Translations under genes and position numbers: made by a program
In this document: piece by piece, positions 753 through 34,099 of the stretch
Position numbering within the stretch: position 1 is the stretch's first letter
Layout of the letters: each line of letters starts with the position of its first letter
DNA from: a virus
IMG/VR virus record: IMGVR_UViG_3300026484_000575
Span: 1 to 34,376 of that record
Strand: one strand, 5' to 3'
Length of the DNA stretch: 34,376 nt
The notes under the pieces: generated by a model
The model's input: the letters and a program-made list of their open reading frames with translations, nothing else
Databases searched by the model: none
What the model was told of the DNA's origin: nothing

Positions 753-761
753 ATTATAGCA
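753..761 (-). promoter_or_regulatory. Extended -10 promoter for the left-edge gene
   Basis: Minus strand reads TGCTATAAT, with the hexamer complementary to 753-758. It lies about 29 bases upstream of the ATG at 723 and matches the elements found at the other transcription-unit starts in the window. Confidence 0.6.
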
Positions 762-1342: not shown

Positions 1343-1360
1343 TGTTTTTCCTTTTTTTGT

Positions 1361-1373
1361 TATAATTATAGCA
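1361..1373. promoter_or_regulatory. Shared bidirectional promoter core TATAATTATA
   Basis: The perfect palindrome TATAATTATA at 1361-1370 supplies a TATAAT on both strands. The minus-strand copy has the extended TGC and serves the gene starting at 1342. The plus-strand copy is preceded by a T-run and GT and serves the gene starting at 1387. Distances from hexamer to start codon are about 22 and 20 bases, the same as at the other promoters here. Confidence 0.6.
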
Positions 1374-1386
1374 AAAAGGCAAAAAA

Positions 1387-2010
1387 GTGGCTGAAAAAAT
1401 AAAAATTACCAACTCGTATTATAAAGAGTTATACATATCTAAAACTGACCAATACGGAAATGAAAAACCTATAGACTTATCTAAATATAATGATTGTTAT
1501 GTAATTTTTAAAAAGAATAGATTAGTGCCTGATGAAGAGGCCTATCTTATTAAAAAAATATATCCAGATGATTCAAATATTGGAGTAATCCCTATTTATC
1601 TAACCCCTGAAGAAACAAAGATGTTGCCGCTTACATCTTTTGATGGAGATTTGCCATATTTTTATATGTTTGTTCAGATAGGGAGTACAGCCACGGGCGA
1701 AACAATGGAAGTGGGTGAATACAAGGTAAAAACAGAATACGCAGGTTTAAGATATTACACTAAAGTTGACACTGATTTAAGTGATTTGGGACCTATTACA
1801 GGATATGTAGGCTATGTGTTTGATTGTGGCAGATTGTGCGAGCCAGCAGTATATGTGCTTGACTTATCTGGAGGAAAGCCTATCGTTACAGATTGTGGGA
1901 AATTAACAAACTATGAATATACTATTATAGATTTAGGGCCTATATCAAAAGAGCCTATTGAGATTTATGATTTAAGTAAGTTTACTGGAGTGTGTGATGT
2001 TAATATTTAG
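1387..2010 (+). CDS. Virion-like beta protein with a 13-residue D(L/C)G repeat
   Basis: 207 residues, starting at GTG 1387 with a weak AAAGG upstream. Residues 1-123 look like a beta-sandwich: alternating strands with a PIDLSKYNDCYVIFKK stretch, a proline-rich centre and a closing EVGEYKVKTEYAG. The pattern is reminiscent of the N-terminal domain of upper-baseplate or fibre-adaptor proteins, which is a weak, by-eye analogy. Residues 133-195 are a run of short repeats beginning D133, D146, D159, D169, D182 and D195, four of the five spaced 13 residues (DLGPI..., DCGRL..., DLSGG..., DCGKL..., DLGPI...). It is first in a three-gene plus-strand operon and overlaps the sigma-like gene by 14 bases. 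Its pairing with a regulator is odd if it is structural. Function unknown. Confidence 0.75.
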   Translation: MAEKIKITNSYYKELYISKTDQYGNEKPIDLSKYNDCYVIFKKNRLVPDEEAYLIKKIYPDDSNIGVIPIYLTPEETKMLPLTSFDGDLPYFYMFVQIGSTATGETMEVGEYKVKTEYAGLRYYTKVDTDLSDLGPITGYVGYVFDCGRLCEPAVYVLDLSGGKPIVTDCGKLTNYEYTIIDLGPISKEPIEIYDLSKFTGVCDVNI

Positions 2011-2650
2011 TTCTGACCCACAGATAAATCAAATAGCTAATCAACAGCTCGAATATTTTGTTAACAAATTCAAACAAAACCACAACGAAAATGTACTAAG
2101 GGCAAAAGGTGAAATAATTATAAAAAAAGCTCTTAAAAACTGGAACCCTAGTAAAGGAAATCTTAAAACATTTTTATCTTCACAACTGCAACAACTATCA
2201 AGAGAACTTTATAAAAATCAAATTGTTTATATCCCCGAAAACCAACAATTATTAATGTACAAGGCACAACAAATTATTAATACATATAATGACACGTATG
2301 GAGGAGTCCCTGATGCTAAATATTTAGCCAAACAGTTAAATATAACAGAAAAGAAAGCAAAAAACTTACTAAACTTATATGGAGGGGTTGTTTCTCATCA
2401 GTATGATACAGATATAAAAGGAAAAACTGCTGAAACATATTCCCCACTTGAAATAATAAACACTATTCCAGATTCTTTGCACAGAGAAATTGCTAATGAT
2501 TTATATTTAAAAGAGAAACCCAAAGATTATATTTATAAAAAATATGGAATTAAGCAAACTAAATTTTATGAAATCAAAAAGAGTATAGATTCACATATAA
2601 ACAGATATTCTGAAGCTATGAATACAGAAAAAGATAAAGGATTATTCTAA
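1997..2650 (+). CDS. Sigma-70-family-like protein, possible phage sigma factor
   Basis: 217 residues. ATG 1997 is preferred over GTG 1994 because GGAG at 1987-1990 then lies 6 bases upstream. Residues about 45-75 read KALKNWNPSKGNLKTFLSSQ then LQQLSRELYKN. This matches the end of sigma region 2 and its link to region 3 (in RpoD-like proteins KFDPSKGxxFSTYA...I.RA). It is followed by VYIPEN and a helix-turn-helix-like GGVPDAKYLAKQLNITEKKA at about 103-121, like sigma region 3. A C-terminal stretch (about 165-200; YLKEKPKDYIYKKYGIKQTK) resembles region 4. The canonical -10-recognition aromatics of region 2.4 are not evident, and the protein is short. It probably directs host RNA polymerase to a subset of phage promoters. 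A DNA-binding protein derived from sigma is the alternative. It is coupled to both neighbours by overlaps of 14 bases and 1 base. Confidence 0.62.
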   Translation: MLIFSSDPQINQIANQQLEYFVNKFKQNHNENVLRAKGEIIIKKALKNWNPSKGNLKTFLSSQLQQLSRELYKNQIVYIPENQQLLMYKAQQIINTYNDTYGGVPDAKYLAKQLNITEKKAKNLLNLYGGVVSHQYDTDIKGKTAETYSPLEIINTIPDSLHREIANDLYLKEKPKDYIYKKYGIKQTKFYEIKKSIDSHINRYSEAMNTEKDKGLF

Positions 2651-3063
2651 TGAATATTAATGACTTGTTTGCCAACAAGATATCGGAGGTAGAATCAACA
2701 ACATTGACATCAAATATACAAACATCAGCAGAAATTGATGCAGAAAAAAAATTAAAAGCATTCGTTCAAGAATTGCTCACAACCAAATCTCCTGTGCTGA
2801 AACCAGGGTATGGAACTACTTTTATTAACGATTTGGGCGAAATAGTTAATATATACAAAATGAGATATTACCTTCAGTCTAATGCCGATTCCATTAAAAA
2901 TAAATATAACATATCTACTGTAGAAATAGCAGATGTTAAAAAAAACGGTAACGCTTTAATAGGGCATATAGAAGCCGTTTTTAATGAAAATATCAAAAAA
3001 ACTGTTAATTTTCAAATTGATTGGAAAGATAGAATGTTTACTACAGAAGCTATTGTGGAGTAA
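2650..3063 (+). CDS. Unknown 137-residue protein, last gene of the sigma operon
   Basis: Starts at ATG 2650 inside the stop codon of the sigma-like gene (TAATG), implying translational coupling. No known domain recognised. The N-terminal 35 residues are polar (NKISEVESTTLTSN). The middle has a helix with KLKAFVQELL and a loop with PGYGTTF. The C-terminal half alternates short beta strands (NALIGHIEAVF, KKTVNFQIDW). No signal peptide or membrane segment. It ends 13 bases before the stop codon of the convergent 3077-3730 gene, leaving no room for a separate terminator. Co-transcription with a sigma-like gene makes an accessory regulatory role possible, but the sequence does not show it. Confidence 0.72.
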   Translation: MNINDLFANKISEVESTTLTSNIQTSAEIDAEKKLKAFVQELLTTKSPVLKPGYGTTFINDLGEIVNIYKMRYYLQSNADSIKNKYNISTVEIADVKKNGNALIGHIEAVFNENIKKTVNFQIDWKDRMFTTEAIVE

Positions 3064-3076
3064 AGGAAGAAGAGAA

Positions 3077-3730
3077 TTAAATATAAATTCTCGCTCCTCC
3101 AAGTCCTCCATTGATAAGATTATCGATTCCTGTTTTAAGGTAATCAATATCACCTTTAAGATTATCGTAATCGTAATCAGTAGCATGGAATATTTCAGAA
3201 GTTACATCAATTTCACCAGCTTCGCTAGTTACTTGAACTTGATAATCTCCACCAGAAACAACACTTCCTGTTAGGTTTTCAGTGTTTACTACTACTCTAT
3301 AATCACCAGAGTTACCAACTTGAGTAATTTGTGCATCTGCAGTTTCATCATCATCAGTGTCAGCTACCACATTGCCTTTTAACGGCTTATAGAAAGTAAT
3401 CGTGTCTCCCGTAACAAGTCTAATTTCTTTAAGTTCAGTTCCTTCAGATGTAGGAATAGATACTTTCATTCCAGCTTTAAATTTCGCACCGTCTCCTTCA
3501 ACTAATGGAAGAATCTTGCTTCCTGCAGAAACATCAGCTGCAATTGTTCCGGTGGCAGGATTATCTATATTGTAGATAATTTCGCTCACTTCAACATTGT
3601 CAGTTTCGTTTGTAACATTTCCTGTTTGTAGGTCAACTAGAAAAATTTCCCAGTCGTTCAACCCCATTTTGTCTCTATCCGTTCCAATAACAAAATGGTT
3701 TATTCCAGGAACAGTCCATAATGCTGCCAT
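3077..3730 (-). CDS. Beta-rich virion structural protein with GGARIYI tail
   Basis: 217 residues, ATG 3730, preceded by AAAGGATAAAAT and its own promoter at 3764-3769. The start (MAALWTVPGINHFVIGTDRD) is followed by an acidic segment. A beta-barrel-like insert at about residues 57-130 (SAGSKILPLVEGDGAKFKAG...GDTITFYKPL) has the 'aGd..i....F..G..v' pattern frequent in phage hub and fibre proteins; a comparable insert occurs in the 24905-25864 product. A helix near the end (DNLKGDIDYLKTGIDNLI) could be a short trimerising coil. The last residues, GGARIYI, resemble the tail of the adjacent 3804-5246 spike (SGAKIFM). Probably a tail or spike-complex component. No specific family recognised. Confidence 0.72.
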   Translation of the reverse strand: MAALWTVPGINHFVIGTDRDKMGLNDWEIFLVDLQTGNVTNETDNVEVSEIIYNIDNPATGTIAADVSAGSKILPLVEGDGAKFKAGMKVSIPTSEGTELKEIRLVTGDTITFYKPLKGNVVADTDDDETADAQITQVGNSGDYRVVVNTENLTGSVVSGGDYQVQVTSEAGEIDVTSEIFHATDYDYDNLKGDIDYLKTGIDNLINGGLGGARIYI

Positions 3731-5414: not shown

Positions 5415-5921
5415 TTATACTTCAATACCAAGCGCTTGTAGGAATGATTTAGCTGCTCTCTCACCAAAAACATCAGCTGTTTTTTCAAGGTCAGCCAATT
5501 CAAGCAATGAATCGTATGCTATTTTTTCTAATTCTGCATCAATTTCTTCTCCAGCTACACTCGCTTCTTTTGCTAACATTTTTGATTCTTCTCTCAAAAC
5601 CGTAACAACATCTTCTTCACTTGCTATTTTAGTAAAAGGGATTCCTTTTTCTTTTTTTATTGGTGCTGTAGGTTCAGTTGTTGACCCTGGTCTATCTATC
5701 ACATTGTTTATTTTGTGCTCATTTTCAAGCCTTTTTAAAATTCCACTTGGGGCTCTTCCCTCAGACACTTTAACGGTTTCTTTTGGTGCTTTTTTTACAG
5801 AATCCGGATTTTCTGTCGGGAATTGAGGTTTGTTGTCATCTGGGTTGGCCATCGCCATTTTCTGAAGGTCTTTTTCCGCTGAATCCACTATTTGCGCAAG
5901 AATTTCGTTTCTGTTTTGCAT
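5415..5921 (-). CDS. Acidic protein rich in KxA motifs, possible head or scaffold component
   Basis: 168 residues, ATG 5921, ribosome site AAAGGAACAAAAA, own promoter at 5947-5955. The first 90 residues are proline- and charge-rich and probably disordered (PDDNKPQFPTENPD, PGSTTEPTAPIKKEK). The C-terminal half is helical. Six K-x-A motifs were counted by eye, among them QKMAM, TKIAS, AKEAS, EKIAY and EKTAD. The same motif is frequent in the 9330-10283 and 16459-17496 products and at the N-terminus of the major capsid protein. Low complexity, acidity and the shared motif would suit an internal-head or scaffolding protein, but position (first gene of the spike operon) does not prove it. No family recognised. 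Confidence 0.7.
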   Translation of the reverse strand: MQNRNEILAQIVDSAEKDLQKMAMANPDDNKPQFPTENPDSVKKAPKETVKVSEGRAPSGILKRLENEHKINNVIDRPGSTTEPTAPIKKEKGIPFTKIASEEDVVTVLREESKMLAKEASVAGEEIDAELEKIAYDSLLELADLEKTADVFGERAAKSFLQALGIEV

Positions 5922-5946
5922 TTTTTGTTCCTTTTTTTTTGGATAT

Positions 5947-5955
5947 ATTATAGCA
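5947..5955 (-). promoter_or_regulatory. Extended -10 promoter for the 5921-to-3804 operon
   Basis: Minus strand TTTTGCTATAATATATCC, TATAAT at 5952-5947, 25 bases upstream of the start at 5921. It forms a divergent pair with the plus-strand promoter at 5971-5979. Confidence 0.6.
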
Positions 5956-5970
5956 AAACTTTTAATTTTT

Positions 5971-5979
5971 TGGTAAAAT
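5971..5979 (+). promoter_or_regulatory. Extended -10 promoter for the HU-like operon
   Basis: TGGTAAAAT at 5971-5979 is preceded by a T-run and ends 20 bases before ATG 6000. The hexamer TAAAAT deviates by one base from the TATAAT seen at most other units, so it may be weaker. Confidence 0.5.
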
Positions 5980-5999
5980 CATTTAAAAAAGGATGTTTT

Positions 6000-6272
6000 A
6001 TGATTAAGACCACTTATATATCGCTTATTGAAAAGATTTCAGCAGATACTAATCTGAATAAAAAAACCGTTAGAAAAGTTATGGATTCTTTTATTAGTGC
6101 AGTATTAAATCTTAAGGATGAAGGTGATACACTATACCTGAAAAATCTCGGAAAATTTACAGTTAAAAAAAGAGCCCAGAGGATTATAAAACTAAACAAA
6201 GAGGGTGACAAAGTGAAAGAAGAAATTATTCCTGAAAGATTGGCTATCACTTTCAAAAGAACTGGGAGCTAA
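6000..6272 (+). CDS. HU/IHF-like DNA-binding protein
   Basis: 90 residues, the usual HU length. ATG 6000 is chosen because AAAAAAGGATGTTTT lies directly upstream; the frame stays open further 5' but lacks a start with a ribosome site. The layout fits HU: an N-terminal helical pair (SLIEKISADTNLNKKTVRKV, about 8-27), a second helix with FISAVLNLKDEGDTL, then the family signature LKNLGKFTVKKRAQR at about 47-61 (HU: GFGxFxVxxRaaR). The closing IIPERLAITFKRTGS corresponds to the C-terminal IPAxxxvxFKpG. The segment that would form the DNA-bending beta arm (about 62-77) has no NPQTG and no intercalating proline, so bending may be weaker or of another kind. It probably compacts or organises phage DNA, or acts as a regulator. 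It heads a four-gene plus-strand operon. Confidence 0.85.
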   Translation: MIKTTYISLIEKISADTNLNKKTVRKVMDSFISAVLNLKDEGDTLYLKNLGKFTVKKRAQRIIKLNKEGDKVKEEIIPERLAITFKRTGS

Positions 6273-6273
6273 C

Positions 6274-6513
6274 ATGGGTGGGGCTTTAAGTCTTTTGGGT
6301 AAAGGTATTTCTTTTGGAGCTAATACTGGTAGAAAAGCAATTAATACGATAAAAAATTCAGCGTTCACTGGAATTACAAACCCTCTTAAAACAAAGACAG
6401 GTAAGGCATTAACTATGTTTACAGTAGGACAAGGATTGTTTAGCCCAGGTACTTCCAATAAAGAGATTACAGGCTTAATCCAACAACAGTCATCAAAATA
6501 TTTTGGCAAATAA
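6274..6513 (+). CDS. Small glycine-rich basic protein, unknown
   Basis: 79 residues, ATG 6274 one base after the HU-like stop, with GGGAG at 6264-6268. The N-terminus MGGALSLLGKGISFGANTG has a small-residue zipper pattern, and ALTMFTVGQGLFSPG near residue 50 is a second short hydrophobic segment. Between them is a basic linker (GRKAINTIKNSAF). The size and glycine pattern recall small membrane-active or internal virion proteins, and a similar glycine-zipper pattern appears in the much larger 13864-15135 product. That is only a resemblance in composition. No family recognised. Confidence 0.7.
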   Translation: MGGALSLLGKGISFGANTGRKAINTIKNSAFTGITNPLKTKTGKALTMFTVGQGLFSPGTSNKEITGLIQQQSSKYFGK

Positions 6514-6514
6514 A

Positions 6515-6757
6515 ATGACTCTGACAACATTTAGAGATAAATTGTTTATGCTTCAAGAGCAAAAAGCTTTAACAAATAACGAGATAAAGTTTTTAAATTT
6601 GTTTAATACTGTGGAGCAAATATATAACATTATAAAAAGCGCAGCTAACGATTCCAAAGAGTTTACAATTAACAATATTAATATTGAGATTATTTCTGAT
6701 TATAAGTCAGAAACAGAAAGTATATGGCTTAAAATTTTAAACGCCGCAATTAATTAA
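6515..6757 (+). CDS. Small helical protein, unknown
   Basis: 80 residues from ATG 6515, one base after the preceding stop. A TTG at 6503 in the same frame would extend it by four codons but has no ribosome site. Initiation at 6515 probably depends on coupling, since the upstream sequence has only a weak purine run. The product is mostly helical (LFMLQEQKALTNNEIKFLNL) with a short beta segment (FTINNINIEII). No signal, membrane segment or known motif. It is the third gene of the HU-like operon. Confidence 0.62.
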   Translation: MTLTTFRDKLFMLQEQKALTNNEIKFLNLFNTVEQIYNIIKSAANDSKEFTINNINIEIISDYKSETESIWLKILNAAIN

Positions 6758-6767
6758 GGAGAAAGCA

Positions 6768-7064
6768 ATGTTTGGAAATGACAGTTTTAATGATTTACAC
6801 AAAATTATAAATAGTAGTGCCGAAAGGGCATATTCTTCAGTAAGCGGAATTCCTAAAATACAAAGAGAAAGTTCAACTGCTAGTGGGCTAAAATGGCAAT
6901 CTAAATTTTTTTTTATAGCGGAACAAACAAGTGCGGATGAGTATGCTAATTTTATGACCAATATTATTCAAAACCCTGAGAAATACACTCTTATAAGAGA
7001 AGAAAAGAACTGGACTCCAAGTGGAGAATTAATTAGATTGGTAGAATACTTAGAAAAATCTTAA
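6768..7064 (+). CDS. 98-residue protein, unknown, end of the HU-like operon
   Basis: ATG 6768 has the strongest ribosome site in this operon (TAAGGAGAAAGCA). The product has a serine-rich N-terminal third (SSAERAYSSVSGIPKIQRES), a central LKWQSKFFFIAEQTSADEYA and a C-terminal helix (GELIRLVEYLEKS). No family recognised. The stop codon overlaps that of the convergent minus-strand gene 7061-8539: both are read from the self-complementary TTAA at 7061-7064. Confidence 0.72.
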   Translation: MFGNDSFNDLHKIINSSAERAYSSVSGIPKIQRESSTASGLKWQSKFFFIAEQTSADEYANFMTNIIQNPEKYTLIREEKNWTPSGELIRLVEYLEKS

Positions 7065-8539
7065 AAGGTCTTATCGTATTCATTACACCAATATTTATAG
7101 GCAATATCAAAACTCAAACAAGAAGTATCTCCAAAAAGTTTAGTTATGATAGTTTCGTACATTGCCTTATAGTCGTCAAATGTGGCATTATTTGCTGTTA
7201 CCCATGATTTGTGAGCCTTATTTATCGTATTAAATATTATATTTATTGGCCCATACAGATTCATTGTCGCATTATCTGTAAAATCCCTACACGTCCCCAG
7301 TATTGCATTCAACAAAAAGAATCTTTTTAATGCGTCATTTTGCTCTAGGTTTGCCACTTGAGAATTTGCTTCTGACAAATATCTTTTTAACACAGTTGTT
7401 ATATCACTCTCTATCAATGTCTCATTGTCACTTGCTATTGATACGATTTCGCTCATTTTCCCAATTAAAGTATATCCCTCCATAGGTAATCCTTCCGGAA
7501 CGGGAAATAGATAAGGCGAAAAATATTTATATAGACTAGTGTTAGGAGTAGCGGGGCCCAATCTGTTAACTATATGAAAACAAACATCTATTCTTGGGTC
7601 AAAAGAAGAAACATTAGTTTTGTATGCGTTTAAATTAAACCCTGTCTCCCCATATCTGAGACCAATACATTTTGAAGGGTCAATAGAGCCGATTACAACA
7701 GATAAGCCATCTTCGGCATTTTTCATTACCATTGATAATACTGATTCCATAACTCCTGAACTATCCGAGATATCATTTTTCAACAATTCAGTTCCAATAG
7801 AGTATACATATTCTATTATGCTATTGTCTGCTTGTTCTGAAGTTGTATAAGGAAATGGAAGAAACACCTTTTCAAACTTTTCATACACACCTGTACCAGC
7901 TTCAGCTGTAACAGCAGAAACAATTTCATTGATTGCATTAATAGCATCTTTTTTGATATCAGGACTTGATACTGCCTTAATCATCAGTCTAGCAATAGGT
8001 AGTAAATTAGGATTGTTTGGATAGGCCAAATCTATAAAAGCGGGAGCATATTTTGAACAAATATCGCCTCTTTCTTTAATAAAGTTTTCTGTATATGAGA
8101 TTATCATCGCTCCAGAATACCCCATGCTATTTACACTTTTTAGCATATTTTCTATTTCTGTAGTATCATCAAACAATTCTTCCATCAAGTCAAATATGTC
8201 AGGTAGGGTTACGATTGTACTGTTGATATAGTAATTGAGCAGTTGCATTAGCAGATTGTCGCCCTTGCTGTTTGTTTGCTGTTTCAAAATTATGCCTGCA
8301 CTATCTTTTGAATTTACAATATCTCTTAATGTATCTTTTATTTTATCTTCACCAAATAAAACACTGTCATCTTTAATAGTGTTTAGTGCAGCTACACACA
8401 ACCATCCAGCACCTGTCATATCCGCAGTAGATGTAGACTGTCCACTAAAAGCATCAATTCCAAGATTGTTCTTTAGTGCCTCTATTGCTTCCGGATTAAA
8501 TCTATCTGTTACAAGGTTTATTAAATTTTCTACCGCCAT
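7061..8539 (-). CDS. Large helical protein of unknown function, end of the head region
   Basis: 492 residues, ATG 8539 with AAAAAGGGACATT upstream and its own promoter at 8558-8566. Almost entirely helical and acidic (for example IFDLMEELFDDTTEIENMLK and a later YLSEANSQVANLEQNDALKR). No transmembrane segment, Walker motif or metal site seen. Cysteines occur singly and suggest no zinc site. It does not show the features of a portal: no stem/clip pattern, no family match and no typical N-terminus. Position downstream of the capsid genes suggests a virion or assembly protein, for example internal head or connector, but that is inference only. It is convergent with the plus-strand HU-like operon. 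Confidence 0.78.
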   Translation of the reverse strand: MAVENLINLVTDRFNPEAIEALKNNLGIDAFSGQSTSTADMTGAGWLCVAALNTIKDDSVLFGEDKIKDTLRDIVNSKDSAGIILKQQTNSKGDNLLMQLLNYYINSTIVTLPDIFDLMEELFDDTTEIENMLKSVNSMGYSGAMIISYTENFIKERGDICSKYAPAFIDLAYPNNPNLLPIARLMIKAVSSPDIKKDAINAINEIVSAVTAEAGTGVYEKFEKVFLPFPYTTSEQADNSIIEYVYSIGTELLKNDISDSSGVMESVLSMVMKNAEDGLSVVIGSIDPSKCIGLRYGETGFNLNAYKTNVSSFDPRIDVCFHIVNRLGPATPNTSLYKYFSPYLFPVPEGLPMEGYTLIGKMSEIVSIASDNETLIESDITTVLKRYLSEANSQVANLEQNDALKRFFLLNAILGTCRDFTDNATMNLYGPINIIFNTINKAHKSWVTANNATFDDYKAMYETIITKLFGDTSCLSFDIAYKYWCNEYDKTF

Positions 8540-10364: not shown

Positions 10365-11297
10365 TTAAGCTAGTTTAATTTTACAAACACCTTTAGTGTT
10401 TATAAATCCAGCTCCAAGTGAACCGTATGTCCACATTGTCATCATATCAGCTTCAGTTTTAATTACAAGAGTATGGTCTTGTAGGATGAAAAATCTTCCA
10501 AAGTAATCCTGAGGTGCAACAATATACATTTCATCATCTTTTACAAGGTCATTTTTAATAGTATCAATCACAGGAATACCGAAAAGTTTATCAATACCAA
10601 GAGTTCCTTGCTCCCAGTTTTTAGAAACGTTTGCGTCACCAATTTCAATCATACCTAGATTTACTAAATCAGCTTTTAGTGTTTGGCTCATTAGAAATTT
10701 AGGTTTAGGTGCATTTGGCCCTGTAGGAATCATTTGTAATCTTGAAAGCATTTTAATAAGAATACTGATGTTTTCTTTTGTAAGTCCACCAGATACTTCT
10801 TGATATTGTGCTCCAGGATTCTCAGCTTCAGCATCTGTAATGATTTTGTTGAACGCTTCTATGAAAGTTTCGTCTTCAACTTTTTGAGCTTCCTGAACGA
10901 ACCTTTTTTCAAGTATTTGAGTGTAAGGCGTTTTTGAAGTCATTAATTCAAATTTAGATTTATTTAATCTTTGTGTTTCAATTTTTTGAAATAGAACTAC
11001 CGGATTTTCTCTTTCCCAATATTTTTGCTCACCTTGGCCTCTGAATGGAACCGTGAACCCTTTTGCTTCAACATCTTTCTCTAAGATGATTGCTGGTTGT
11101 TCACTTCCACTTACCCTATCAAGGTCTGCAGCAGTTACAGTTTTTGGCTCTATCAATCTTCTTGCAAAACCAAGTTCTCTTACTCTTTCTCTAATAAAAT
11201 AAGTACTGTTGTCCATTGCTTGCTTTAATAGCGATGCATCATTTGCAGCTTTAACAAGCCCTGCGTTAGTTTTTATAGTAGGTACTTCAATTTTCAT
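10365..11297 (-). CDS. Major capsid protein, HK97-fold type
   Basis: 310 residues, typical for the family. ATG 11297 has AAAAGGATGAAAG upstream. After a short helical N-terminus comes STYFIRERVRELGFARRLIE with a PxxVTAADLDR segment, then QPAIILEKDV and AKGFTVPFRG. This is the N-arm/E-loop pattern seen in a widespread group of phage capsid proteins (RExxFaRxIlxPxxit..dl...pxiixe.e). Later segments (GGLTKENISILIKMLSRLQM, LMSQTLKADLVNLGM, GTLGIDKLFGIPVIDTIKND, MYIVAPQDYFGRFFIL) fit the P-domain helix and A-domain loops, where the protein contacts itself to form capsomers. Residues 15-30 contain two KxA motifs (LVKAAND, LLKQAMD), a possible processing point. It follows the decoration-like gene by 11 bases and is presumably the most highly expressed gene here. 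Confidence 0.88.
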   Translation of the reverse strand: MKIEVPTIKTNAGLVKAANDASLLKQAMDNSTYFIRERVRELGFARRLIEPKTVTAADLDRVSGSEQPAIILEKDVEAKGFTVPFRGQGEQKYWERENPVVLFQKIETQRLNKSKFELMTSKTPYTQILEKRFVQEAQKVEDETFIEAFNKIITDAEAENPGAQYQEVSGGLTKENISILIKMLSRLQMIPTGPNAPKPKFLMSQTLKADLVNLGMIEIGDANVSKNWEQGTLGIDKLFGIPVIDTIKNDLVKDDEMYIVAPQDYFGRFFILQDHTLVIKTEADMMTMWTYGSLGAGFINTKGVCKIKLA

Positions 11298-11847: not shown

Positions 11848-12120
11848 TTAAACTAAACTGGAAAGAAAAGACTCCAATTGACTTTTTGCATCTTGCCTTT
11901 GTTCTGATACAGATGAAGGCATCCCTAATTCTACTTCATTAGAATACCAATTATGCTCATCAATGGCTGACGCTTCTTTTACCATAGCTCCAACTGTAGC
12001 ACTTTTGCGAGCCTCTTCCAATTCAGCTTGCAGTTTTGCGATTTCCGCATCTCTCTTTTCTATTTCAGAAGCAGCTTTCTCTAACAAGGCTGATATTTGC
12101 TCTTTTGTGTAAACTTTCAT
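11848..12120 (-). CDS. Small coiled-coil protein, scaffold-like
   Basis: 90 residues. The longest frame starts at 12126, but AGGA then abuts the ATG. ATG 12120 has AAAAGGATGAAA at normal spacing and is preferred. Residues about 5-42 form a heptad coiled coil (QISALLEKAASEIEKRDAEI then AKLQAELEEARKS). It is followed by MVKEASAIDEHNWYSNEVEL and a serine-rich helical end (SQLESFLSSLV). Two of its motifs are of the KxAS type. Coiled coil, small size and position just before decoration and capsid genes are what one expects of a scaffold or scaffold remnant, although true scaffolds are usually larger. It has its own promoter at 12148-12156. Confidence 0.65.
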   Translation of the reverse strand: MKVYTKEQISALLEKAASEIEKRDAEIAKLQAELEEARKSATVGAMVKEASAIDEHNWYSNEVELGMPSSVSEQRQDAKSQLESFLSSLV

Positions 12121-12147
12121 TTTCATCCTTTTATTTATTTTTGTTTA

Positions 12148-12156
12148 ATTATAGCA
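12148..12156 (-). promoter_or_regulatory. Extended -10 promoter before the scaffold-like gene
   Basis: Minus strand TTTTGTGCTATAATTAAAC, TATAAT at 12153-12148 with the extended TGC, 27 bases from ATG 12120. It lies in the 47-base gap after the terminase stop. Confidence 0.6.
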
Positions 12157-12167
12157 CAAAATATTTA

Positions 12168-13799
12168 TCAATAGAAAGCAACTATACCTTTGTAGATTTT
12201 GAATGCGTTATAAGCAAAAACAGATGCATGAAGAAAGTCGTCAGGATGGACTCCCCTCATCCATATTCTATATCCATTTTTAGTTACGTGTTCGTGTTCG
12301 GACAGCAAATGTAATATAGGTTCTCTCATTTCTTTCGGATTAGGGAATATAAATCTTCCACCCTTATTAGCTTCATCTTTTTTTCCTGGCTTTAGTGCTT
12401 TAAAAAAATCATCTATTGCTGTAGTTTTATCCAAATATGCAGTCCAACCGTCAGCGCTTCTTTTTATAGCTCTGTCAAACTTTCCATATCTAAATGGTTG
12501 CACTATTTCAGGACCAAACGCATCCGCTAGATAAGAGTTATTTAGCGCCCCCTCACCAGCATCCGCTCCTATTTTATCAACCCCAAATAAAGCCAATGTT
12601 CTTTTTATTTCCCTGATAGTGACCATATAATCTTGTTGAGGGAATATTTTATAGTACAGTAACTGAAGTCTACCACCATCTCTATATTTATACTCACCCG
12701 CTAACTCTCCATAAATAGCTAAGACTGTTCTTGAGTTATAATCGATACCTCCTCCTGACCAGTCAATTCCTGCAACGATAGTTTTAAACGTTTTTTTAAG
12801 ATAACCCTTGTTGGGATTATTAATCACATGTAACCCCGGCCTACAACATGCAAGAATATCATCTTCCGTTATAAATCTAGCGCCTTTGGAAAAAGAAATA
12901 CCTAATACCTCATTATTGAATTTCGCTTCATCATATTCTTCATATTTTTGAAGAAGGTCATTCCATTTGTTTTCAAAACCATAATGAAGCTTTAAAGCCG
13001 GTTGCGGAACCCTCACTCCAACGTAAAAAGCTTTTTCCAAATCTGGAGAAGTAGGAACAATGGTATAATGTTCCATATCCAACATTCCGCCACATTTGGT
13101 GCAAATAGGCCCCTTTTTCCCTATATTTTTATATCCTATATCATTCCAAGCTCCACAGCTTCCACACTTAAAAAATATTTCATGTTGTGTTGAGCGTTGC
13201 CACATAATTTCGATTGGATTATCCACTGTTTTAGGTGTTCCAGCAAATAACTTCCGTGGTTTAAGCGAGGCCGATAAAATTTCTAATGCAACAGGTATTT
13301 CATTTGGGTCCATATCCTGAATTTCGTCTAACATTAGATTGTCAGCAGAATAACCCCTGGTTCTATCAGCGTTGTCTTTCATATATGAGATTGTAACACC
13401 ACTACCATTAGCAAAGTTTTTATCAAATAAGCTATCCTTCACATCATAGCTATGCTTATTTAATAAATACTTTCTTGCGATTGGAGAACGTGCTAAAAAT
13501 TCATTCAACTTAACCCTTGCAAATTCCCTTGCTTGTCTTTCAGAAGTAGTGGCATAAAACGTTCTTCTGTTTGCTTCAAGCATACTGTCAGTAACAACTG
13601 TTGCAGCAAGCATTGTGGATTTACCAACCTGTCTGGCTGTTTTTAATAATAAATTTGTTCTATCCCAATTATATATATGCTTAAAAGGTGCGTGCAATTT
13701 AAAATTAAATCTCTGTCCTTTAAGCATCAATACCGCTTGAGCATAATCAGAACGTTTAACTATTTTTTTAGAATAAGTAAGAGGGGGAGAGAAAGACAT
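12168..13799 (-). CDS. terL: Terminase large subunit (DNA-packaging ATPase/nuclease)
   Basis: 543 residues. ATPase domain: Walker A ARQVGKST at 55-62, Walker B LMLDEI at 155-160 and the coupling segment LFAGTPK at 184-190. A four-cysteine zinc ribbon (KCGSCG at 211-216, CTKCGG at 233-238) is inserted between the ATPase and nuclease domains. RNase H-like nuclease acidic residues: D346 in VAGIDWSG, D413 in GADAGEGA and D520/D521 in HPDDFLHASVFA. The family translocates genome DNA into the prohead and cuts it at unit or headful length, docked on the portal. The start is ATG 13799, with AAAGAAAAG some 7 bases upstream. No small terminase is recognisable on either side, and a 64-base gap separates it from the upstream coiled-coil gene. 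The pathway assignment is certain at family level; the packaging mode cannot be told. Confidence 0.96.
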   Translation of the reverse strand: MSFSPPLTYSKKIVKRSDYAQAVLMLKGQRFNFKLHAPFKHIYNWDRTNLLLKTARQVGKSTMLAATVVTDSMLEANRRTFYATTSERQAREFARVKLNEFLARSPIARKYLLNKHSYDVKDSLFDKNFANGSGVTISYMKDNADRTRGYSADNLMLDEIQDMDPNEIPVALEILSASLKPRKLFAGTPKTVDNPIEIMWQRSTQHEIFFKCGSCGAWNDIGYKNIGKKGPICTKCGGMLDMEHYTIVPTSPDLEKAFYVGVRVPQPALKLHYGFENKWNDLLQKYEEYDEAKFNNEVLGISFSKGARFITEDDILACCRPGLHVINNPNKGYLKKTFKTIVAGIDWSGGGIDYNSRTVLAIYGELAGEYKYRDGGRLQLLYYKIFPQQDYMVTIREIKRTLALFGVDKIGADAGEGALNNSYLADAFGPEIVQPFRYGKFDRAIKRSADGWTAYLDKTTAIDDFFKALKPGKKDEANKGGRFIFPNPKEMREPILHLLSEHEHVTKNGYRIWMRGVHPDDFLHASVFAYNAFKIYKGIVAFY

Positions 13800-13863
13800 T
13801 ACTGTTGCTTTTCTTTAAAGGTATAAACAGTAATATATTTTGTTTTCTTGTCCACATTCAATC

Positions 13864-15135
13864 TTATTGGTGGTCTTTATAAGCCTGATATCCACTTGTT
13901 CCCAACCCTACCAATGCTAATGCACCTAATGCTCCTGCACCTTTTTTCCATCTACCTAAACTTTTCTCAAGCTCTCCATAATTTGTTTTCAATTTATTGT
14001 GTTCTCCAGTTAAATTTGTTAGGTCTTGTTGAGTTTGTGTATATCGAGCATTAATGTCATTCAGATGAGAATTCAAATCCTGGACTTTTTGTTTGTAGTC
14101 ATTGATTGTGCTTTTATGCTGGCCTATTTGTTGAGTTAAATCATCAATTGTTCTTTTATGCTGACCTATTTGTTGGGTCAAATCATTAATTCTTGATTTA
14201 AAATTTTGAATAGTTCCGTATTGCTCTCTTATTTGTTGCTGATATTCTGCATTACCCTTTAGAGCTTTATCGTAGAGTCTTTCCATGATATTTTTCTCAT
14301 GCTCTAATGCAGCCATATTACTTTTTAATTGGGCAATATGATTTGTTGCGCCTTGGTGTCTTGCCATTAAATCATATTCTTTATAAGTATCTTTTACAGT
14401 GGCACCTCTATTTTCTGGAGTGGCCTCCACTTTAGGCTGTTGTTGTTTTTGTTGGCTTCTAATTACCTGACTTACTCTATTGGCTCTATTCTCGTCTACC
14501 ATATCGCTTTTTCTTAGCAAAATACCTTTTTTTCTCTTTTTGGCTGCAATCTTAAATAACAACCCTGCTTCTTCGTAGCTTGCTTCTTTTTTTATACCTT
14601 TTATTCCATCAGCCACTCCATATGCACCTAACCCCCCAGCTGCTAAAGCGCCAAGCCCATATAGAATACCAGCTTTTTTATTTTTTTTGGCAAATTGTGC
14701 AAGCTCTTCATTGCTTCTTCTAACACTATCTGCAGCAGTGTATGATTGTATTATATCAGATAAAAGTTCTTTTTTAGTATTTGTTAAGTCTTTAATTTTG
14801 TTGTTAACCTTGTTTCGGGAAAACATCTGTTTTATTTTATTTAGAATACCTTTGTTTGACATTTCTAAATCTGAAATTCTTTGACTAAGTTCACCATGAA
14901 GCGCTTTATGATTTTGAGCTCTATCTAAAAAGGCGTCAATAGTCTTTTTATTTTCATCAATAGCTCTTCCGGTTTCTTTTACGGTTTTTATTTTATCGTA
15001 AGCTTTTTTTCCGGCATATGCACCTAGTCCTAATCCTGCTGCACCTCCAGCCAACTCTGCTCCGGCTACAGCTTTATTTCCAGTGTTATCTCCACTTGCA
15101 ATCTTATACAATTCTTCAAGAGTGGTTAGTCCCAT
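13864..15135 (-). CDS. Coiled-coil protein with three glycine-zipper hydrophobic segments
   Basis: 423 residues from ATG 15135; a second ATG three bases upstream is too close to AGGA. In the 424-residue numbering from 15138, hydrophobic glycine/alanine-zipper segments lie at about 23-43 (GAELAGGAAGLGLGAYAG), 156-178 (GILYGLGALAAGGLGAYGV) and 399-416 (KGAGALGALALVGLGTSG). They flank long coiled coils at about 60-135 and 260-395. The second coil contains a 14-residue tandem duplication (DLTQQIGQHK(R/S)TI..). KxA motifs occur at LYKIAS, IKKEAS and FKIAA. Membrane-spanning segments plus coils would suit an ejection or internal head protein, or a short tape-measure-like protein, but it is far shorter than usual tape measures. 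Function inferred only. Confidence 0.72.
   Translation of the reverse strand: MGLTTLEELYKIASGDNTGNKAVAGAELAGGAAGLGLGAYAGKKAYDKIKTVKETGRAIDENKKTIDAFLDRAQNHKALHGELSQRISDLEMSNKGILNKIKQMFSRNKVNNKIKDLTNTKKELLSDIIQSYTAADSVRRSNEELAQFAKKNKKAGILYGLGALAAGGLGAYGVADGIKGIKKEASYEEAGLLFKIAAKKRKKGILLRKSDMVDENRANRVSQVIRSQQKQQQPKVEATPENRGATVKDTYKEYDLMARHQGATNHIAQLKSNMAALEHEKNIMERLYDKALKGNAEYQQQIREQYGTIQNFKSRINDLTQQIGQHKRTIDDLTQQIGQHKSTINDYKQKVQDLNSHLNDINARYTQTQQDLTNLTGEHNKLKTNYGELEKSLGRWKKGAGALGALALVGLGTSGYQAYKDHQ
14111..14194 (-). repeat. Tandem 42-base repeat inside the coiled-coil gene
   Basis: Two in-frame units, 14111-14152 and 14153-14194, are identical at about 37 of 42 positions. Each encodes fourteen residues containing LTQQIGQHK. 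The duplication lengthens the coiled coil by two heptads per unit. A degenerate third unit may lie at 14069-14110. Confidence 0.75.
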
Positions 15136-15162
15136 CATTAATCCTTTTTTTAATTTTTTTTA

Positions 15163-15909
15163 TTATATAAAAAAATTTTTTATTTGTCCATTAATTGTAT
15201 CAATTTTATGGTTTAAGTACGCACAAGATTGTGCGTTTTTGATAAGATAATTTAATAAATATGGAGTATCTTTAAAAAAATTAACAACTTCTGGAGAATC
15301 TACTAATTCTTCTAATTCTTTTAAGGTTTTATTTTTTAAATATTTTGTAACCTTTATATAGTGTTCAAGTTGCCTAGTTTCATACATATCCAAAATTACA
15401 GGAAACGATAAAAACATCGGAGGAAGCTCCCAGCTTTCCCAGGTTAGACAGGCTTTAATATATCTTAATACATTACCAGTAAAAGGAAAATTATCTGCTC
15501 CCCAAATACCCATAATATTCATACATGCCCACGCTATCTCTTCTGCCGTGTAAGGTTCAAGTGTTTGTGCGGTAATTTCGTAATTGTTAAAACATTCAAC
15601 CATAGGGTTAAACGCCCATACGTTTGTAAAAACTTCATCTGTTTTTAAAATTGAGGTCATTGCTTTTAATCTTTCAGCGTTATACTGAGAATATGGAGAT
15701 ATTATGTCGTTTATAGTTTCAAGCTCCACTTTAAACGCTTCTTTCCCCATCATATTTAATAAGGTAAAATATAATATAAGGGATTCGACTTGGTCATTTG
15801 AAAAAATAAGTTCATATTCTTCTTTTGTAAATTTTTTCTTTAATATATAATCCTTCAGATTATCCACCTGATGTGCAAAATCAAAAAGTTGTTTGGTTGC
15901 TTTATACAT
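15163..15909 (-). CDS. Helical protein of unknown function
   Basis: 248 residues, ATG 15909 with AAGGAATAAAAA upstream. Predominantly helical throughout (FTKEEYELIFSNDQVESLIL, AEEIAWACMNIMGIWG, HYIKVTKYLKNKTLKELEEL) with several tryptophans. No transmembrane segment, signal peptide or enzyme motif stands out. It lies between the beta-rich 15921-16457 gene and the coiled-coil gene, in the same direction as terminase, with gaps of 11 and 27 bases. Neighbourhood suggests a structural or assembly role such as a neck, tail-completion or chaperone protein. The sequence alone gives no family. Confidence 0.72.
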   Translation of the reverse strand: MYKATKQLFDFAHQVDNLKDYILKKKFTKEEYELIFSNDQVESLILYFTLLNMMGKEAFKVELETINDIISPYSQYNAERLKAMTSILKTDEVFTNVWAFNPMVECFNNYEITAQTLEPYTAEEIAWACMNIMGIWGADNFPFTGNVLRYIKACLTWESWELPPMFLSFPVILDMYETRQLEHYIKVTKYLKNKTLKELEELVDSPEVVNFFKDTPYLLNYLIKNAQSCAYLNHKIDTINGQIKNFFI

Positions 15910-15920
15910 TTTTTATTCCT

Positions 15921-16457
15921 TCATATTGTAAATGAGTAGAAAATATTATCCCCGTTATAATCTGTTTTAATAATGCCCGTTCCCATAATGAATCTAACCG
16001 GCACATAGGTGTTTGCTGGGAATTCAAACACTTGTTCATCCTGAACTATATTATTACCAACTATTGCTATAGATTTATCTTTTGTAACTGTAAACTTAAT
16101 GTTAATAGATTCCGGCACCATAATAAAACCGCTATAATCTGTGTTGTCGTGGTCTAAATATAAAAAACCATCATTGTCAATTTTGGGCATTTCAATGTTT
16201 GTCCCAATAATGGTGTTGCATCGATTTAATAGGTCAGTATATTTTTTTTCTTGCATATAAATTTCAGGATTAAAATTTAATGCCACTTTAAGCAATCCTT
16301 TTCTTACATCTAACACTTCATAAAAATCAAATACAATAAACTCTTCATTAAAAAGTTTTACTATTGATGAAAAGCTATCTTCCCTATTTGAAGTAATGCA
16401 ATTATTAAAAGGAGAAGAAACTCCTTTCTTGGGCGATATAATTGTTATATTAGACAT
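15921..16457 (-). CDS. Beta-rich protein of unknown function
   Basis: 178 residues, ATG 16457 with TAGAGGTATAGT upstream; starts one base after the stop of the 16459-17496 gene. Strand-rich: IVKLFNEEFIVFDFYEVLDV, then GLLKVALNFNPEIYM, SINIKFTVTKDKSIAIVGNN and FEFPANTYVPVRFIMGTGII. The C-terminus ends NIFYSFTI. The pattern suggests a beta-sandwich structural protein of the neck or tail. No family recognised and no conserved catalytic residues visible. It is part of the operon that begins at the 17521-17529 promoter. Confidence 0.7.
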   Translation of the reverse strand: MSNITIISPKKGVSSPFNNCITSNREDSFSSIVKLFNEEFIVFDFYEVLDVRKGLLKVALNFNPEIYMQEKKYTDLLNRCNTIIGTNIEMPKIDNDGFLYLDHDNTDYSGFIMVPESINIKFTVTKDKSIAIVGNNIVQDEQVFEFPANTYVPVRFIMGTGIIKTDYNGDNIFYSFTI

Positions 16458-16458
16458 A

Positions 16459-17496
16459 CTATACCTCTACATACCCCATTAATAGTTCTGATATTATTTC
16501 TTGAGATTCCTTAGGTAAATCTTGAAGAATAGCTATTACAGACTCTCCTGAATATTCCCCTTGTTCACTTGCCTCTTTCCTAAGGTCTTCGCCTATAATA
16601 TTCATTCCATCTTGGCTTTCAAAAAATTCCACAAGGTCGTCTTTATAGAATTCAACACCTCCGATAGTAACTTTTTCCTCGCTCGCCGTTTTTTCAATCT
16701 CACCTGTATTTTTATCTATAGTATTAAACACTATTTCAAATGGGTCTTCAACTTCAGAATATTTTACACCAGCTTCTTTATCTAAATTAAAAATTTCTAG
16801 ACATATCCCTCTGTTTAATCCTGTATCATAACTAACATCGCCGGCTTGCTTGTGCAGTTCCTTGACTTTATCCATTATTTTAGAATAACCATCATTTTGA
16901 GTTATAGCGTATCTTACTCCTAAAGCCATTGCTACCTTATGTAAATTGCACGCTGCCTCTTGACCGTACACAAAAGCCCATTGCGGTATCTCTTCGTCAT
17001 CATATCCCATTTCTCTTGCTACTTTTACAAGATTGGTAGCAACCTCAACTTTATCGCTTAAATCCATTCTTTGTAAATTTGTAGCTATTACTGATGCAGA
17101 TTTCTCAAGCATTTCTTTATTCATTGCTGGAAATTTCATTTTACTTGGAAGTAGAAAATCTGCTTCGCTTGCCGTTTTAATAAACTCTTTTTCACCTTCA
17201 AGTAAAGTAGTTAGATTATTGAGGCCATATTCTTCAAGAGCCGCTCTTACATTCTCTTTAACATCTTGGTCAACTTCGGAAGCCTGCTTATATATATAAA
17301 GAGCGCTTATTGCAGCGTCAGCGGGAGTATGGACTGGAAACTTCTTTTCGATAGGGTCTGCAAAAATATCTTCCGGCGCTTTGTCGTAATCAACATCAAC
17401 GTTAGCTTGTTTTATTAGTTCCAACGGTTTAATTGGGGCATCGTATAACACCATTTGAAGAAAACTTAAATCTTTATCGTTTGTGATATCAAACAT
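16459..17496 (-). CDS. KxA-motif-rich protein, candidate internal head protein
   Basis: 345 residues, ATG 17496 with AAAGGACGAAAAAA upstream and its own promoter. Acidic and helical. It has ten K-x-A motifs, the most in the window: IKQAN, YKQAS, IKTAS, EKSAS, VKVAR, HKVAM, HKQAG, DKEAG, EKTAS and RKEAS. They are roughly evenly distributed, so seven of ten are followed by S, G or N. A run of helical repeats (for example ALEEYGLNNLTTLLEGEKEF) separates them. No enzyme motif. The motif links it to the 9330-10283, 5415-5921, 13864-15135 and 11848-12120 products and the capsid N-terminus. An abundant internal or scaffolding role is likely, though the molecular meaning of the motif is unknown. Confidence 0.72.
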   Translation of the reverse strand: MFDITNDKDLSFLQMVLYDAPIKPLELIKQANVDVDYDKAPEDIFADPIEKKFPVHTPADAAISALYIYKQASEVDQDVKENVRAALEEYGLNNLTTLLEGEKEFIKTASEADFLLPSKMKFPAMNKEMLEKSASVIATNLQRMDLSDKVEVATNLVKVAREMGYDDEEIPQWAFVYGQEAACNLHKVAMALGVRYAITQNDGYSKIMDKVKELHKQAGDVSYDTGLNRGICLEIFNLDKEAGVKYSEVEDPFEIVFNTIDKNTGEIEKTASEEKVTIGGVEFYKDDLVEFFESQDGMNIIGEDLRKEASEQGEYSGESVIAILQDLPKESQEIISELLMGYVEV

Positions 17497-17520
17497 TTTT
17501 TTCGTCCTTTTTTTTATTCA

Positions 17521-17529
17521 ATTATAGCA
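17521..17529 (-). promoter_or_regulatory. Extended -10 promoter of the 17496-to-12168 operon
   Basis: Minus strand TTTTGCTATAATTGAAT, TATAAT at 17526-17521, 24 bases from ATG 17496. It lies in the 47-base gap after the tail operon and would drive the genes down to terminase. Confidence 0.62.
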
Positions 17530-17543
17530 AAATTGCGCCAAAA

Positions 17544-18845
17544 TCAATAGGAATCTAACGCATAACCATTTTCAGGAACTACAGCGTACTTATTAAAGTC
17601 TTTTATTGTGTCTGCATTTATGTCTAATAAAAACGAATATTTGTCCTCTTCTATATTAAAAAACATATAATCATTCATAGTTAATATTTTAATATCTTCT
17701 TTAATTTCAATAGAATAATCTCTAGACTCATACCCTTCTATTGTTTGCTGTAATAAAGTATCATTATCTACGCCAGCAAACCTATATTCTGTAGTAGGAA
17801 TCAACGGAGGGGTTGCGTTAGGCATAACATCAGTTCCAAACAAGTTTTTTGGAGGACAATAAAACCCATCGTTAGAATTGTTAAAATGTTCCATATAGGC
17901 ATTCCATTGAAAATAGAAAGCATTATGTCTTCCTATCCATGAACGCCCAAGATATTTAAATAATTCACTAAAGGTTTCAAACTTTTTATCTGTTTTTGTA
18001 GCTATTATTTTTCTGTCTCCATTTTGAGGGCAAAACAATTCTATTCTGTTTGGATTTTCATTAAATCTTTTTAAAACCATATTTTTCACTGAATCAAAAT
18101 CTGTTGAGCCTTTAATAAAATAATCTCCGTCTCTATCTAAAATATAATATTCAGTCTTCTTGGATTCGCTATATACACTTTTATCATAGTCCACTGTTAT
18201 AGCTTCAATCATATAATCATTTTCGCCCGGCTTTCTATAGAAATATAAATCAAAACTATATTTGACTGGAGGGTCATAACAGATTTTTCCCTTCATAATA
18301 TAATAATCTTCGTTTTTAGACAGCCCTTCTATGTTGGCTAAAATCCTCCAATCGTAAGTCCAACATTTTACAATCCCTGATTCTGAACCTTCTTTCTGGC
18401 ACGGGCCTAATAAAAAATTAGTAAGCCCTTTAGCTGGATAACAAGCATAAATAGCTAAAGCACACGGAATGTCACTTTCCATAACTTTAGCTTTGCTGGT
18501 TTGATTAAAGTAATATGTAATCCATCTGTTTTTATAATAAAATCTTATTTTTTTGGTTTTATATTTAGATAATCTTTTGTGGAAAGATTTATTATCTACT
18601 TTCTTGTATTGAATATTATGAAAATTGTCATATTTCATCTCTTTTACAATTAATTCAAAAAAATATTCTGTAATCATAAGCTTTATGGCTGGTTGTTCAA
18701 TTATGAATTGTTTATAGTTTAAATCAGGATTTTCTCCTCCCGTTACTTTATAATATGATTTATCTTTTTCATTGTCTTCAAGATTTTCAAAATAAACTTG
18801 TTCATAAAGTTTATGGTTTACGTTGGATAAATACACTGTAGCCAT
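17544..18845 (-). CDS. Unknown virion-like protein, last gene of the tail operon
   Basis: 433 residues, ATG 18845 with GGAGAACAA upstream, 8 bases after the previous stop. Tyrosine-, lysine- and aromatic-rich mixed alpha/beta protein: FYYKNRWITYYFNQTSKAK, LAIYACYPAKGLTNFLLGP, VKYSFDLYFYRKPGEND. The C-terminus has a proline stretch (ATPPLIPTTEY). Cysteines such as those in LGPCQKEG and KCWTYDW could pair but are too scattered to call a zinc site. Tight packing with the fibre genes supports a tail, baseplate or fibre-connector role. No family recognised, and the product ends just before the next promoter. Confidence 0.75.
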   Translation of the reverse strand: MATVYLSNVNHKLYEQVYFENLEDNEKDKSYYKVTGGENPDLNYKQFIIEQPAIKLMITEYFFELIVKEMKYDNFHNIQYKKVDNKSFHKRLSKYKTKKIRFYYKNRWITYYFNQTSKAKVMESDIPCALAIYACYPAKGLTNFLLGPCQKEGSESGIVKCWTYDWRILANIEGLSKNEDYYIMKGKICYDPPVKYSFDLYFYRKPGENDYMIEAITVDYDKSVYSESKKTEYYILDRDGDYFIKGSTDFDSVKNMVLKRFNENPNRIELFCPQNGDRKIIATKTDKKFETFSELFKYLGRSWIGRHNAFYFQWNAYMEHFNNSNDGFYCPPKNLFGTDVMPNATPPLIPTTEYRFAGVDNDTLLQQTIEGYESRDYSIEIKEDIKILTMNDYMFFNIEEDKYSFLLDINADTIKDFNKYAVVPENGYALDSY

Positions 18846-33213: not shown

Positions 33214-34059
33214 TTATAATTGTGTTTTTTCTACTAAAACGTTTTTAAGGTCAAGTATTTTGAAATAAAATTGTAAATCCTGAGTTGTTCCGGTATAGTT
33301 AGGCGGAATGTAAAAAGTAATATCAAATCTTATTGCATTCGCAGTACCGGTGCTCATAGATATAAGTCTAGGAACAATGTCATTTGCTTGAATTTCATCG
33401 TTATCATCATTAGGGTAAGTATATGCCCAGAAGTCTTTTATATACCATCCATGAGGGATTCTGTCTCCATTGCTCCAAAGCATAAATCTATCAGGATGTG
33501 GGTCATCGTCCCCATAAACATCTCTTCTTGTCATTATAATTTCTTTAGTAGGGTCGTCCGGGTCTCTTCTGGCAGCTCTAAAATATCCTGCTTCTTCGTT
33601 TGTAGATGTTGACCATCCAAATTTATATTCACCTACGTTAAAATTACACCAAAATACATCGTCGCCTTCTTCTGATAGCTTGTAATCACTGCTGCTATTA
33701 TAATAGAAATTTCCTACTGGATTTTGAGGGTTGATTTCAAACAAGTCTTCTTCATCTGGAGCTGTTACTTTTACTTCTTTTACAAAATCAATAAAAGGTA
33801 CATATTTAGTATTTCCTTGCCCATCATCTTCAGGTTTAACAAGCGTCCATAGAAGTGTATCGCCTTCAGCTAAAGTAATTTTTGTTCTTGTGTACTTTTG
33901 TGTTGCAGGGTCATAATCATCCCATCCACCCAGATAAAATGTCAACACCTGCTCTTGTTGGTTAACCGAGTTTAGAGAAACTTTCAAGTCTCCAGCTACC
34001 AATTCATAGTTTAAATCAGGGTCTTTAAAGAGTTTAAAGCCATAGTCTTGTAAAGCCAT
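33214..34059 (-). CDS. Tail protein, first gene of the large tail operon
   Basis: 281 residues, ATG 34059 with AAAGGAAAACTA upstream and the promoter at 34091-34099. It opens the 16.5-kb unit that runs down to 17544. Start QDYGFKLFKDPDLNYELVAG and the NAIRFDITFYIPPNYTG stretch near the end mark it as a paralogue of the next gene. The intervening region is acidic with arginine/aspartate clusters (AARRDPDDPTKEIIMTRRDV, YGDDDPHPDRFMLW). As first product of the operon it is presumably made in quantity, which suits a subunit of a multimeric ring or fibre base. No known family recognised. Confidence 0.77.
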   Translation of the reverse strand: MALQDYGFKLFKDPDLNYELVAGDLKVSLNSVNQQEQVLTFYLGGWDDYDPATQKYTRTKITLAEGDTLLWTLVKPEDDGQGNTKYVPFIDFVKEVKVTAPDEEDLFEINPQNPVGNFYYNSSSDYKLSEEGDDVFWCNFNVGEYKFGWSTSTNEEAGYFRAARRDPDDPTKEIIMTRRDVYGDDDPHPDRFMLWSNGDRIPHGWYIKDFWAYTYPNDDNDEIQANDIVPRLISMSTGTANAIRFDITFYIPPNYTGTTQDLQFYFKILDLKNVLVEKTQL

Positions 34060-34090: not shown

Positions 34091-34099
34091 ATTATATCA
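34091..34099 (-). promoter_or_regulatory. Extended -10 promoter of the tail operon
   Basis: Minus strand TTTATGATATAATATGC: TGA plus TATAAT at 34096-34091, about 31 bases before ATG 34059. No other convincing promoter is seen within the 16.5-kb unit down to 17544. Confidence 0.6.

Follow-up and report, generated by a model that had tools for sequence, protein, structure and literature searches.

We propose that the protein encoded at 1997-2650 of the window, that is, the whole 34,376-nucleotide stretch of viral DNA analysed here, acts as the subunit that gives promoter specificity to the multi-subunit RNA polymerase which the phage itself encodes, and not to the host core enzyme, a reading to which we assign a probability of roughly 0.68. 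The common view is that phage sigma factors direct the host polymerase. Here, the partner would instead be a fusion of beta with the N-terminal part of beta' (beta-beta'N) together with a separate C-terminal part (beta'C), both encoded on the same 161-kb genome as the sigma gene. According to our model, the TGnTATAAT promoter at 1358 would drive late synthesis of the sigma factor, which would be packed into the particle alongside the polymerase and carried into the cell with the DNA, where the two would start the first round of phage transcription. The sigma2 domain would dock on the beta' clamp of the phage enzyme and open the DNA at a -10-like element, with sigma3 and sigma4 touching the flap and the DNA upstream. 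We infer core binding, packaging in the window phage and promoter specificity; the virion content of sigma and polymerase is that reported for Salmonella phage Arash, a distant relative (~20% identity).

The window is 99.99-100% identical to positions 49682-84057 of IMGVR_UViG_3300026382_000002 (hereafter G001), a 161-kb phage contig with 202 ORFs, for which we also found a 76-kb relative (G002). By terminase (tblastn), its nearest cultured phages are Arash and the Vibrio phages D69, D148 and D181.

A diverged sigma-70-family protein among virion genes

The 1997-2650 product is a sigma-70-family protein with a sigma2-sigma3-sigma4 fold and represents a strongly diverged bacterial-type sigma factor. 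Searched alone, it matched phrog_351 'RNA polymerase sigma factor' (E=6.6e-4, residues 41-186), with no sigma match in the Pfam or PDB searches and nothing found in INPHARED by tblastn; bacterial and archaeal genome contigs held no close relative. Iterative IMG/VR searches instead gathered a family of related proteins of ~230 aa, whose profile matched sigmaF in the PDB over nearly its whole length (1l0o_C, E=2.2e-10, positions 8-225), as well as SigA, FliA and tens of other sigma factors. Pfam matches among 14 members of this family were to Sigma70_r3 in 12, to r2 in six and to r4 in two. When the profile was built from the relatives only, excluding the window and G002 proteins, the window protein was the sole match among the 202 ORFs of G001 (E=1.5e-16), and in profile searches G001 and G002 each had a single member of this sigma family. 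The resemblance to sigma regions 2-3 claimed in the earlier note, which had called for a profile search against sigma-70 regions, is thus borne out at the level of family profiles.

The AlphaFold2 model of the protein (18 related sequences, mean pLDDT 82.7) predicts three helical domains, and a structure search with this model returned sigma factors. Since the domain arrangement differs and the full-length rmsd is consequently large, we quote superpositions per domain. With residues numbered on the 218-aa form from GTG 1994, sigma2 (7-77) superposes on 8b3z with an rmsd of 2.6 Å over 71 residues, and sigma4 (146-211) on 5fgm with an rmsd of 2.4 Å over 65 residues. The latter stretch is predicted to match the region 4 helix-turn-helix of SigR and SigE, so that a region 4 formerly listed as possible is now supported by predicted structure and, given the two Pfam r4 matches, weakly by sequence.

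The sigma gene is the second of three plus-strand genes (Table 1), which form an island amid minus-strand virion genes and lie exactly where the earlier note had placed them. Its ATG at 1997 has a GGAG 8 nt upstream, and a GTG at 1994 is possible too. It overlaps the preceding gene by 14 nt and the following one by 1 nt, the latter through TAATG coupling. G002 keeps all three genes in the same order, with amino acid identities of 69, 65 and 46% and dN/dS values of ~0.14, ~0.17 and ~0.36 for the first, second and third, respectively; on account of this conservation and of the dN/dS values, we regard the three ORFs as real genes. The sigma homology and fold support the earlier view of a sigma-type regulator in an operon of virion genes, and this operon has a late-type promoter.

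The first product gave no match in family searches. The third had been described as a small unknown gene coupled to the sigma gene; the coupling holds, but the product is probably a gp25-like baseplate protein. Its motif LLTTxSPxLKPGYGT aligns to the baseplate-wedge family of the relatives, whose proteins match the phrog_43/975 baseplate proteins, and this points weakly to a baseplate identity for the neighbour of sigma (hhalign E=0.001, probability only 22%), within what is a virion-gene region. Arash gp11 was considered as a counterpart of this third product and dropped for poor alignment, a relation to the baseplate-wedge (gp12-type) proteins fitting better, if weakly. A second plus-strand island amid minus-strand virion genes occurs at 5892-7064 of the window and begins with an HU-like DNA-binding protein (Pfam Bac_DNA_binding, E=1e-12).

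Table 1. Coordinates of the features discussed, in window positions (G001 and G002 positions in the last column)
Feature	Position	Strand	Remarks
TGCTATAAT	753..761	-	upstream of minus-strand gene ending at 723; G001 50442
Palindromic divergent promoter TGTTATAATTATAGCA, overlapping TGnTATAAT elements	1358..1373	both	would serve sigma operon (+) and 773-1342 gene (-)
Operon gene 1	1387..2010	+	GTG start, 207 aa
Operon gene 2, sigma-70-family protein	1997..2650	+	ATG start 1997, 217-218 aa; profiles, AlphaFold2 and fold search
Predicted domains of gene 2 product: sigma2 ~7-77, sigma3 ~82-143, sigma4 ~146-214 (residues)	1997..2650	+	predicted structure
Operon gene 3, probably gp25-like baseplate wedge protein	2650..3063	+	137 aa; weak hhalign match
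TGCTATAAT	5947..5955	-	upstream of 5415-5921; G001 55636; kept in G002 at 14568
Major capsid protein, Arash gp226 homologue	10365..11297	-	phmmer E=4e-42
TGCTATAAT	12148..12156	-	upstream of 11848-12126; G001 61837; kept in G002 at 8478
Terminase large subunit	12168..13799	-	phrog_675 E=3e-51; tblastn
TGCTATAAT	17521..17529	-	upstream of 16459-17496; G001 67210; kept in G002 at 3334
TGATATAAT	34091..34099	-	upstream of 33214-34059; G001 83780

The phage polymerase and its association with sigma

None of the polymerase genes lies within the window; they are found elsewhere on the 161-kb genome that carries the sigma gene. At G001 13459-17820, one frame of 1453 aa carries Rpb2_3, Rpb2_6, Rpb1_1 and Rpb1_2 together with the catalytic NADYDGD, and is 30.7% identical to Arash gp206 over 1182 aa (E=5e-165); judged from these sequence features, it is beta fused to the N-terminal half of beta'. 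The 585-aa protein encoded at G001 43148-44905 matches Arash gp216 (E=1e-69) and is accordingly assigned as the C-terminal part of beta', here a separate gene.

Several peculiarities were seen in the polymerases of related phages. In most of them (G002, G007, G005 and Arash-like loci), A or G stands at the first position of the catalytic NADFDGD motif, where G001 keeps N. Relative G006 has an intein-like insertion directly after NADYDGD (then CADCT...; C1 ~85480-86970), and another one is found near beta residue 775 in relatives G005 and G016. Moreover, Arash gp7 (7425-8105) and its equivalents in six further relatives, all tail-module proteins of 224-248 aa, resemble the beta' C-terminal subunit, matching its residues ~212-279 with E values as low as 7e-8; it looks as though the tail had borrowed a beta' domain.

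The sigma family and the fusion polymerase are associated in both directions. The sigma family was present in 25 records, of which 21 also encode the fusion polymerase and the other four are fragments of 46-88 kb. Starting in reverse from the polymerase, we found the sigma in 8 of 16 newly fetched, previously unseen polymerase-bearing records of 71-190 kb; it was present in every one of the seven records that reached 138 kb, and the largest records lacking it measured 131 and 134 kb. By itself, such co-occurrence does not prove a function, because both genes are shared by phages of common descent. The module order in the relatives, and likewise in Arash, is a large tail protein, the sigma, a ~460-aa protein, the gp25-like protein and a ~710-aa protein. 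The host core polymerase, which the earlier note had implied as the partner of the sigma, is probably the wrong one, as this phage has multi-subunit polymerase genes of its own, which the sigma family accompanies.

In bacteria, the beta' clamp helices (R275, R278 and E295) are met by residues of sigma region 2.2 (D403, Q406 and E407 of sigma70), which typify the function of the sigma-70 family without being an absolute requirement for belonging to it. The three sigma70 residues align to V34, A37 and K38 of the window sigma and are non-canonical throughout its family, while the three beta' residues align to I, A and L in the phage beta', R275 being replaced in every phage compared. These changes on both sides of the contact fit a private interface and may reflect a changed partner, but plain divergence could also account for them.

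The -10-facing residues raise the question of whether the protein still initiates at all. W433 and W434, the aromatic -10 residues of sigma70, align to S63 and Q64 of the window sigma, as one might expect if a sigma-derived virion structural or DNA-binding protein had lost the ability to start transcription, in keeping with an earlier suggestion that it may bind DNA without initiating. The position of the gene in a virion-gene operon, overlapping and coupled to its neighbours, would agree with this, as would the fact that Arash gp10 is a virion protein (PMC10585845). However, the window sigma keeps T59, F60 (Y430) and Q67 (Q437), retains all three sigma domains under purifying selection, and belongs to a family that co-occurs with the polymerase. 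We therefore hold the loss of initiation to be very unlikely and favour a sigma acting with the phage polymerase.

Promoters of the sigma, polymerase and virion genes

The TGnTATAAT motif occurs at 30 sites in G001, 14 of them intergenic against 3.4 expected; among the 16 with a T-run just upstream, 14 are intergenic. G002 behaves similarly (20 sites, 12 intergenic against 1.0 expected). Typical sites precede the starts of virion genes by 24-40 nt, frequently with a counterpart at the orthologous position in G002, and the polymerase gene has a site of the same type (G001 13467). The TGTTATAATTATAGCA pair before the sigma operon is kept in G002 at 19036/19051. Since its divergent -10 elements overlap, one melted site would serve two opposite promoters. 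No -35 partner was apparent for TGnTATAAT in a dyad search, and the ribosome-binding site was the sole motif that EM searches recovered from complete upstream regions. Because they all have TGnTATAAT-type sites, the sigma, polymerase and virion genes appear to form one promoter class, probably a late one, which would fit packaging.

These promoters bear on another possibility, namely that the protein binds the host core and redirects it to phage late promoters independently of the phage polymerase, as the classical sigmas SPO1 gp28 and T4 gp55 do. A sigma-70 fold with all three domains in the model, a conserved motif 24-40 nt before virion genes with an intergenic excess in both genomes, and a late-type promoter on the sigma's own operon are all consistent with such a role. 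On the other hand, TGnTATAAT is an ordinary host promoter, with a good host extended -10 element, and would need no new sigma. Furthermore, the family lacks the canonical clamp-binding residues of region 2.2 and is tied to the phage polymerase in both directions, and Arash virions hold the sigma together with phage beta and beta' (PMC10585845). Considering all this, we judge a classical host-directed sigma unlikely. It retains some probability given the resemblance of the promoters to host extended -10 elements, and for the same reason the motif itself does not tell a host from a phage holoenzyme as its reader. Our preferred reading remains that of a sigma serving the phage polymerase.

In Arash, motif counts pointed to different motifs, namely TGGTATAAG...CTGTA in front of leftward genes and CTAAAATAC before gp216/gp218, in numbers too few to assign to the sigma. 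The leftward non-structural genes of Arash share an upstream TGGTATAAGA(n)CTGTA that is distinct from the CTAAAATAC before its polymerase and structural genes, and the two possibly represent two promoter classes.

Significance and comparison with known phages

We are evenly divided on a broader proposal, that this lineage carries a self-sufficient virion holoenzyme, made of beta/beta' and a true sigma, with a clamp interface re-tuned against mixing with the host polymerase, and hence a separately evolved viral sigma-dependent system. A lineage with both components would provide a natural orthogonal sigma/core pair and would reveal how a phage can package a sigma-dependent polymerase and put it to work from the first minute of infection onwards. 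The window sigma is not categorically new, since proteins of this kind already appear in the proteomics of Arash and YerA41; its branch of the sigma family is strongly diverged, and as far as our searches show, the tie of its family to the phage polymerase has not been worked out in the literature. Our reading offers a testable account of the unexplained presence of sigma in the virions of these two phages.

Reviews describe polymerase-encoding jumbo phages as devoid of recognisable sigma homologues, and sigma-encoding ones as devoid of a polymerase (PMC7598289, PMC7824862, PMC13282480). Contrary to this, the lineage of the window phage has both. The SPO1-type and group 2 jumbo phages likewise encode sigma-70-family proteins, but they have no polymerase of their own and are thought to use the host core (PMC7598289, PMC7824862), in contrast to the multi-subunit polymerase genes that we found in G001. 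The phiKZ gp68 and AR9 gp226 proteins are promoter-specificity subunits of a phage multi-subunit polymerase, as we propose for the window sigma. However, they serve a non-virion polymerase, and AR9 gp226 is reported to have no sequence similarity to sigma factors while phiKZ gp68 resembles them in structure only (PMC13282480), whereas the window sigma is recognisable by sequence profile.

Tailed phages with beta and beta' alignable to the cellular enzymes, partly from IMG/VR, have been described as the mReC lineage of Caudovirales (Weinheimer and Aylward 2020, PMC7481178), and sigma factors go unmentioned in the main text of that study. We liken the window phage to this lineage by the presence of its own beta/beta' rather than by placement in a tree. 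In Yersinia phage YerA41, polymerase subunits and a late-expressed sigma factor (g019) are among the particle proteins (PMC7354516). We draw the likeness from this description, own polymerase subunits plus a sigma factor, and the YerA41 polymerase is annotated on more genes than that of the window phage.

Arash (OQ632216) offers the closest parallel by sequence. Its gp10, annotated as 'RNA polymerase sigma factor RpoS' and located in the tail module, belongs to the same sigma family as the window protein (phmmer E=1.7e-5 and the family profile), and the two phages share the same polymerase architecture (gp206/gp216) and probably also the tail/baseplate setting of the sigma gene, which is clear in Arash and other relatives. 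The two sigmas are only ~20% identical; that of the window has a shorter N-terminus, missing a region 1.2-like helix, and different -10-facing residues. Gene order differs as well, the window having no gp11-like gene and its sigma operon forming a plus-strand island amid minus-strand virion genes. Mass spectrometry of Arash virions recorded 467 spectra for gp10 (full coverage), 3516 for gp206 (the most abundant) and 1210 for gp216, with the caveat that proteins abundant during infection may merely persist in purified particles (PMC10585845).
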